NCBI GenBank assembly: GCA_017303995.1
Contig: JAFLBE010000014.1
Span: forward strand, 1 to 64,000
Source of the DNA: Bacteroidota bacterium
GTDB lineage: Bacteria; Bacteroidota; JABWAT01
DNA: 64,000 bases
Direction: 5' to 3'
In this document: one piece after another, positions 58,875 through 62,324 of the stretch
How the letters are laid out: each line of letters begins with the position of its first letter
Numbering within the stretch: the stretch's first letter is position 1
Position numbers and translations under genes: made by a program
The notes under the pieces: generated by a model
Seen by the model: only the letters and a program-made list of their open reading frames with translations
What the model was told of the DNA's origin: nothing
The model's database searches: none

Positions 58875-58949
58875 CCTCGATACGCCTGCGGCACTCGGTG
58901 TCCGGTGGAAAAGCGGTCCCCGAGTTCAGCCAAAGGCTGAATATCGAGG
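58875..58949. repeat. multi-arm palindrome element, copy A
   Basis: Outer stem CCTCGATA (58875-58882) / TATCGAGG (58942-58949). Inside, GCC-TGC-GGC is arm 1, ACTCGG (58893-58898) / CCGAGT (58920-58925) is arm 2, and TCAGCC-AAA-GGCTGA (58926-58940) is arm 3. All arms are perfect, a four-way cloverleaf in one 75-bp unit. Confidence 0.85.
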
Positions 58950-58969
58950 GGGCGGGGTTTGGTAAGTGC

Positions 58970-59000
58970 AAAAAAGCCGGGTTAAGCCTGGCTTTTTTTT
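58970..59000. terminator. bidirectional intrinsic terminator
   Basis: AGCCGGG, loop TTAAG, CCTGGCT, with six A before and eight T after, so it can end the amylase transcript on the plus strand and the GIY-YIG transcript on the minus strand. Confidence 0.8.
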
Positions 59001-59092
59001 GAACAGATGATTTCGGTTAGTTTCTCCGTCAGTAGACGTATTTTCAAGATACATCGCTTTGCTCTTGCCCGACGACCGGAGAAAGAGCGGGA

Positions 59093-59169
59093 CCTCGATA
59101 CGCCTTACGGCACTCGGTGTTCGGTGGAGGAAGATGTCCCCGAGTTCAGCCAAAGGCTGAGTATCGAGG
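59093..59169. repeat. multi-arm palindrome element, copy B
   Basis: CCTCGATA / TATCGAGG outer stem, arm 1 GCC-TTAC-GGC, arm 2 ACTCGG/CCGAGT, arm 3 TCAGCC-AAA-GGCTGA. It ends 20 bp before the GIY-YIG stop codon. The left flank CGACGACCGGAGAAAGAGC resembles the flank of copy C. Confidence 0.85.
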
Positions 59170-59188
59170 GGACAGGGTTTGGTTTCGG

Positions 59189-59473
59189 TTATTTCTTCCA
59201 GGTCTTTTTTGCAAGCGTTGGCAACTGATCAAATTCACCGTCAATCAGCGCCTTCTTTTTCTTTTGCGACCAATTCTGAACCTGTTTTTCCCGATAAAAA
59301 GCATCATCAACCCGATCGTATTCTTCCCAGTAAACTAAGGAAACCGGTAAACGGGTTTTGGTATAATTCGCGCCAAATCCAGATTGATGTTGTTCAAACC
59401 GACGATCAAGATCTATTGTGCTGCCGGTGTAAAATGAGTGATCCCTGCATTGCAGGATATACATATAGGGCAT
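59189..59473 (-). CDS. stand-alone GIY-YIG nuclease (YhbQ/UPF0213-like)
   Basis: A protein of 94 residues, essentially one GIY-YIG domain: MPYMYILQCRDHSFYTGST (YMY and YTG as the two half motifs), the catalytic Arg in DLDRRFEQHQ, GFGANYTKTRLPVSLVYWE and the Glu of AFYREKQVQNW. The start is the ATG at 59473; a longer frame reads through palindrome C. Family members cut DNA structures or are of unknown role. The gene is flanked by four copies of a cruciform-forming palindrome and its start abuts a 12-bp hairpin, so it may act on, or be moved with, those palindromes. Confidence 0.9.
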   Translation of the reverse strand: MPYMYILQCRDHSFYTGSTIDLDRRFEQHQSGFGANYTKTRLPVSLVYWEEYDRVDDAFYREKQVQNWSQKKKKALIDGEFDQLPTLAKKTWKK

Positions 59474-59507
59474 TTTTGTAAGGATATTATTCGGAATCCT
59501 TACAAAA
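59474..59507 (-). promoter_or_regulatory. 12-bp hairpin abutting the GIY-YIG start codon
   Basis: TTTTGTAAGGAT (59474-59485) and ATCCTTACAAAA (59496-59507) form a perfect 12-bp dyad with a 10-nt loop immediately before the ATG. The only Shine-Dalgarno-like word (AAGGAT) is inside the stem. Either an operator or a translation-blocking hairpin. Confidence 0.6.
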
Positions 59508-59600
59508 TTAATAATTTCAGTTGAGAAGTGAAAGTGGGAATGTCCGGGCGTCTCGATATAATCACGTTGGTCGTTACTCGACGACCGTGGAGATCGGGCA

Positions 59601-59678
59601 CCTCGATACGCCTGCGGCACTCGGTGTCCGTGAAAAAAGCGGTCCCCGAGTGTCCGTCAGTTGACGGACTTATCGAGG
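59601..59678. repeat. multi-arm palindrome element, copy C (arm 3 replaced)
   Basis: Outer stem and arms 1-2 are as in copy A (GCC-TGC-GGC; ACTCGG/CCGAGT). Arm 3 is a different perfect hairpin, GTCCGTCA-GT-TGACGGAC (59652-59669), instead of TCAGCC/GGCTGA, showing conservation of structure rather than sequence. Confidence 0.85.
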
Positions 59679-59701
59679 GGAGAGTTCTTAGGAGTTTTCT
59701 G

Positions 59702-59773
59702 GGCACCTCGATACTCGTTGTCCGTAGGAAAAGCGGTCCCCGAGTTCAGCCAGAGGCTGAGTATCGAGGTGCC
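59702..59773. repeat. multi-arm palindrome element, copy D (arm 1 lost)
   Basis: A longer outer stem GGCACCTCGATA / TATCGAGGTGCC (12 bp, perfect), arm 1 absent, a reduced arm 2 (ACTCG/CGAGT), and arm 3 TCAGCC-AGA-GGCTGA. It ends 8 bp before the fumC stop. Confidence 0.85.
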
Positions 59774-62282: not shown

Positions 62283-62324
62283 GAACACAGAGGACACTGA
62301 GCGAAGTCGAAGTGCCCTCTGTGT
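62283..62324. repeat. hybrid palindrome: CACAGAG arms around a GAGCGAAGTCGAAG core
   Basis: AACACAGAGG and CCTCTGTGTT form a 10-bp stem around ACACTGAGCGAAGTCGAAGTG, in which CACT/AGTG pair. The arms belong to the CACAGAG family and the core to the palindromes of the CTCGA type. It lies just before the serB 3' end. Confidence 0.55.

Follow-up and report, generated by a model that had tools for sequence, protein, structure and literature searches.

Stand-alone GIY-YIG nuclease genes are bracketed by short palindromes, each type of gene being paired with its own type of palindrome; the palindromes are also dispersed through genomes and occur as presence/absence alleles. These observations point to a widespread nuclease–palindrome module, which we consider the probable explanation, in which the GIY-YIG protein would recognise its cognate palindrome and help to spread it. 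In the 64-kb window (the whole stretch of DNA that was analysed), such a gene lies among four palindromic units, delineated by alignment, folding and pattern search, with a cyclomaltodextrinase-like GH13 gene on one side of the cluster and a class II fumarase gene on the other:

58875–58949: palindromic doublet A (minus-strand half 58875–58897, plus-strand half 58921–58949)
59093–59169: palindromic doublet B (minus-strand half 59093–59116, plus-strand half 59141–59169), ending 20 bp short of the GIY-YIG gene, on its stop-codon side
59473–59189, minus strand: stand-alone GIY-YIG nuclease gene (PF01541) of the B-type (window-like), 94 aa, ATG at 59473
59474–59507: 12-bp perfect inverted repeat TTTTGTAAGGAT/ATCCTTACAAAA, abutting the GIY-YIG start codon on the upstream side
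59549–59583, minus strand: decayed palindrome of the GAG...TCGA formula with a 4-bp stem
59601–59678: palindromic doublet C (minus-strand half 59601–59623, plus-strand half 59647–59678)
59706–59769: palindromic unit D (truncated left half, plus-strand half 59741–59769)

Each unit pairs a REP-like half, CCTCGATA-hairpin-ACTCGG, with an oppositely oriented one, CCGAGT-hairpin-TATCGAGG, the architecture being STEM-GAG-hairpin-TCGA-STEM'. Their alignment revealed that the inner hairpin of doublet C (TCCGTCAGTTGACGGA) differs from that of the other copies and that the left half of unit D is missing its inner hairpin. All 8 TATCGAGG/CCTCGATA sites of the window fall inside the cluster, 4 per strand, against a chance expectation of 0.92 (8 sites were reached by no shuffle), and folding of the single-stranded DNA yielded z-scores of -3.6, -4.0, -3.4 and -6.7 for A, B, C and D, respectively, with shuffled sequences never folding as well. 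The original prediction of four palindromic units, with a GIY-YIG gene between copies B and C, thus describes a real arrangement. Judging from the formula, folding would place the GA of GAG opposite the GA of TCGA, so that a tandem G.A mismatch could form. A lone TGAG/TCGA palindrome of another B-like family (GGACACTGAGCGAAGTCGAAGTGCCC) is present at 62295–62314; the pattern of this family, CTGAGCN{2,5}GTCGAAG, has 79 copies in the window's genome.

The window protein matches PF01541 with 60.4 bits (cut-off 22.6), and an alignment shows Y5, Y15-x-G17, R25 and E62, among them the active-site Tyr, Arg and Glu, to be invariant across six paralogues from the same genome. By these features it is a member of the GIY-YIG superfamily and a putative nuclease. 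Its closest relatives with solved structures are BH0048 (1zg2 in the PDB) and EF2693 (1ywl) from the UPF0213 (YhbQ-type) family, to which the window protein also belongs; both entries carry only the name 'hypothetical protein'. Homologues were identified in 58 of 99 relatives. No DNA-binding domain was found besides the ~95-aa nuclease, PADLOC returned no match for the window protein and one weak match for the A-type protein (see below), and a single-sequence AlphaFold model (mean pLDDT 54) was too weak for use.

The half-element pattern has 26 matches in the 4.31-Mb genome, 7 in the cluster and 19 dispersed, with 0 matches for the reversed control; complete ~75-bp doublets of the window sequence are found at the cluster only. 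Local duplication as the sole origin of the copies, the outcome that the original prediction had named as fatal to the module, is ruled out by the 19 dispersed halves. This finding bears also on another reading, namely that the palindromes serve the nuclease gene as terminators or regulatory sites and the cluster is a product of local duplication. The palindromes do form hairpins in short intergenic gaps, and a terminator-like hairpin is present at 58970–58998, but the 19 dispersed copies, the presence/absence alleles and the pairing across phyla described below are at odds with such a role, and so are three multi-domain GIY-YIG genes of the window's genome that lack any bracket. Dispersal and cross-phylum pairing largely refute this reading, to which we give hardly any credence.

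Sixteen dispersed sites were prepared for comparison with the congener G002, and 13 were recovered there with a slightly shortened query. The palindrome is common to both genomes at 5 of these 13 sites, cleanly absent from one (L206/L228) and missing as part of a bigger absent block from another (L202/L226), the remaining intergenic regions being unalignable or too rearranged to read. No consistent target duplication and no clean insertion junction were found among the loci compared. G001–G003 do not preserve the GH13–fumarase gene order, so these genomes are uninformative as empty sites of the window element; in G002, sequence identity picks up again just past copy D. At one syntenic site (L203/L222) the outer stem is conserved between the congeners and the inner hairpin is exchanged.

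Ten PF01541 matches were identified in the window's genome. Three of them, in multi-domain proteins or other contexts (two are long UvrC-like frames), are the unbracketed genes mentioned above, which served as controls. The paralogues L026 and L027 are bracketed by inverted copies of TGTCATTCCCGCGAAGGCGGGAATCCA and GTCATCCCGGACTTGATCCGGGATCCA, which exhibit the typical features of CGTC REPs, i.e. a CGTC/TGTC tag, an 8–9 bp stem starting with AT, a short loop and a CCA tail, while four further paralogues (L022–L025) are located downstream of tRNA genes. The window's own palindromes possess neither the tag nor the tail, follow the GAG/TCGA formula instead and hence fall outside the CGTC class. 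CGTC-tagged REPs, which include dRS3 from Neisseria and RPE-4 and RPE-6 from Rickettsia, have been reported without a dedicated transposase (Di Nocera et al. 2013, PMC3733652). The brackets of L026 and L027, together with those of the 80 loci described below, fit this class, to which the association with GIY-YIG genes is added here; the original prediction had made no mention of CGTC REPs.

To describe the pairing, 163 non-redundant stand-alone GIY-YIG genes were sorted by best query into A-type (relatives of L026 and L027), B-type and C-type (tRNA-associated). Within 400 bp of the B-type genes (n=39), the GAG/TCGA palindrome occurs at 2.61/kb, compared to a background of 0.012/kb, and the CGTC motif at 0.29/kb. 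Within the same distance of the A-type genes (n=115), the CGTC motif reaches 3.04/kb (background 0.179/kb) and the B formula 0.078/kb; C-type genes exhibit neither. The A/B pairing is a double dissociation, with the other type's motif largely missing from each type; by the definitions used, 14 of the 39 B-type and 28 of the 115 A-type genes lack their motif. Visual inspection of the 13 best homologues of the window protein revealed that nearly all lie amid differing palindromes of the formula STEM-GAG-N-TCGA-STEM', and a strict count found the formula at 11 of 15 B genes of the discovery set. The 24 B genes that played no part in the discovery of the formula gave 28 matches, whereas 143 scrambled anchor pairs averaged 0.13 matches and never exceeded 2. 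When the L027 type was used as the query of a protein-only search, 80 loci from many phyla emerged, around which CGTC REPs are 27-fold enriched (1.87/kb within 400 bp versus 0.069/kb elsewhere on the same contigs).

The arrangement is also geometrically regular: upstream of A-type genes the nearest REP is in the '+' orientation in 59 of 67 cases (median distance 25 bp), downstream it is in the '-' orientation in 45 of 60 (median 11.5 bp), and 48 A-type genes have REPs on both sides, tight and outward-facing. Eleven of 20 adjacent pairs among the dispersed CGTC doublets are oriented outward, like the gene brackets. A bracket score that makes no use of the motifs placed both A and B genes above 863 control ORFs. 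In the protein tree, which is based on few columns and leaves many forks unresolved, the A/B label is clustered (7 changes). Within the A-type, protein distance tracks the distance of the REP stem (Mantel rho 0.35) and of the loop (0.24), both with p 0.001. Many genomes possess several GIY-YIG paralogues, each with different palindromes. Distant GIY-YIG matches were considered as the missing partners in palindrome-rich genomes without a clear B-type gene, and this candidate explanation was rejected, as only one of 10 (G071) was bracketed by the B formula.

The pairing is visible also at the level of whole genomes. Of 99 genomes, 41 have an A-type gene, and 21 of these contain at least 5 CGTC-pattern matches, as do 7 of the 58 without a strong A-type match (Fisher p about 3e-5, not phylogeny-corrected); among the nearest relatives, G000 and G002 with the gene have 62 and 178 matches, versus 6 in G001 and 13 in G003, which lack a strong A-type match. 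For CTGAGCN{2,5}GTCGAAG, at least 4 matches are reached by 15 of the 23 genomes that have a B-type gene and by 13 of the 76 that do not (Fisher p about 2e-5, likewise not phylogeny-corrected). The palindromes are thus commoner in genomes that carry the gene, and not equally frequent in its absence, as the original prediction requires. The clearest exception is G004, with 215 B-like palindromes (CTGAGC..GTCGAAG) and no B-type gene detected; it is possible that its palindromes outlived their partner or do not need it.

Searches of a plasmid collection identified A-type matches in A. lipoferum, S. meliloti, N. aromaticivorans, Sphingobium, Rhizobium, Shinella and Aeromonas, as well as in N. gonorrhoeae chromosomes filed as plasmids. 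Of ten flanks read, several are bracketed: CGTC REPs surround the A-type gene in A. lipoferum, S. meliloti and N. gonorrhoeae, those of the last being dRS3-like, and no tight bracket was seen around the GIY-YIG genes of Photobacterium and of the plasmid of Rhizobium K1/93. In A. lipoferum the unit occupies the sufB–sufC gap and is missing from this gap in A. ramasamyi, A. oryzae and strain B510. Three states exist at the fnrL locus of Sphingobium: no palindrome (TYG72), one palindrome (CGTCACCCCGGGTCAAGCCCGGGGTGACG in TYG64, with TYG74 similar) and palindrome–gene–palindrome (TomMM7A, TomMM15 and TYG46). At the site of the REP–gene–REP array of S. meliloti Ak57, Sinorhizobium K101 carries one palindrome. 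On pSymB of Ak57 (L250), the 3' part left over from another GIY-YIG gene lies between CGTC REPs, beside the intact unit.

In the module that we favour, the GIY-YIG nuclease would recognise its cognate palindrome when this is folded as a hairpin or cruciform and would cut there or close by. The repair or replication machinery of the host would then copy palindrome singlets, doublets or palindrome–gene–palindrome units to new sites. As non-autonomous elements the palindromes would depend on the GIY-YIG protein, a relation like the one proposed for GTAG REPs and their RAYTs. Of the original comparison with REP/RAYT systems, the association is strongly supported, in dozens of genomes and in a type-specific form; the protein may recognise and propagate the cruciform, but action of the palindromes as single-stranded hairpins is possible too. 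The resemblance to GTAG REPs and REPINs with their RAYT (TnpA-REP) lies in a small nuclease gene between inverted imperfect palindromes, scattered singlets and doublets, and a type-specific pairing of enzyme with palindrome. However, the enzyme differs (GIY-YIG, PF01541, versus the HUH/Y1 transposase, PF01797), so that a covalent transposase intermediate is not expected here, and the palindromes are CGTC-tagged or GAG/TCGA instead of GTAG.

The main rival explanation is a homing-type GIY-YIG nuclease, with the gene copied by recombination into cut palindromes (or, for the C-type, a cut tRNA arm) and the palindromes spread by other means. Free-standing GIY-YIG homing endonucleases likewise are small genes at a defined site with gene-less alleles there, and the Sphingobium and Sinorhizobium alleles, with one palindrome where others have palindrome–gene–palindrome, fit this rival and the module alike; palindromes without the gene in G004 also agree with it. 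Homing endonucleases, however, sit in one conserved host gene, whereas here the flanking sequences are palindromes that recur at many places in the genome, and the window protein has no detected DNA-binding domain outside its nuclease. Another agent for their spread might be sought in the Y1 transposase (RAYT-like, PF01797) genes L032–L038, seven in number (six full matches and one partial), which are also present in the window's genome. These genes lie amid palindromes of other sequence, mostly their own families. A tie of the window palindromes to the RAYT-like genes was accordingly rejected, with one B-formula match in their flanks overall, and the gene bracketed in the window is itself a PF01541 gene, not a Y1/HUH transposase; the window's genome is a place where many palindrome systems exist side by side. 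For CGTC REPs, Di Nocera et al. (PMC3733652) found no tyrosine transposase gene flanked by them. Palindrome and protein, moreover, covary within the A-type. Homing appears unlikely, though it deserves serious attention.

Other members of the GIY-YIG superfamily cut branched DNA, and the nucleases could alternatively have a housekeeping role, processing extruded palindromes and so protecting replication, with adjacency a result of local co-selection and no spreading involved. Mobility was not observed here, which agrees with such a role; yet the dispersed copies and the lineage-specific sufB–sufC unit show that units come and go, and many genomes have several paralogues with different palindromes. 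We regard a housekeeping role as quite improbable.

Short interspersed palindromes are among the commonest bacterial repeats. According to the proposed module, the A-type GIY-YIG protein would be the dedicated enzyme of CGTC REPs, including dRS3 of Neisseria, the stand-alone GIY-YIG nucleases being the strongest candidates for the enzyme missing from this class. With a tiny nuclease named, the origin and spread of the class become testable with one protein and one oligonucleotide. The prediction would also suggest a function for the many genes whose annotation says no more than 'GIY-YIG nuclease family protein' or 'excinuclease ABC subunit C'. A search of the open-access literature (subscription papers and preprints lay outside it) identified no paper joining GIY-YIG with 'repetitive extragenic palindromic' or dRS3, broader searches brought up no title of relevance, and a 2025 survey of REPs (PMC12306157) mentions neither a nuclease nor a transposase; within this literature the association appears to be unreported.

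The C-type genes look like a variation on the same theme, with a tRNA arm standing in for the palindrome. In 7 of 8 loci the GIY-YIG gene comes directly after the 3' end of a tRNA gene, both genes being on one strand, and beyond it stands a duplicate of the tRNA 3' end that has a hairpin in place of the T-loop. The tRNA is that for Ala in L022 and L165, Ser in L023, L025 and L065, and Asp in L024 and L182. Such a placement, with the tRNA gene on one side and its duplicated 3' end on the other, is among the observations that favour homing. Stand-alone GIY-YIG proteins may be the dedicated mobility enzymes of a second palindrome superfamily, comprising CGTC REPs with dRS3, GAG/TCGA palindromes and duplications of tRNA 3' ends, a broader proposal for which we judge the chances to be even. 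If true, it would define a class of minimal mobile elements, active across many phyla, that relies on a hydrolytic structure-specific nuclease instead of a HUH transposase. In L024, several copies of the tRNA 3' end are arranged in tandem.
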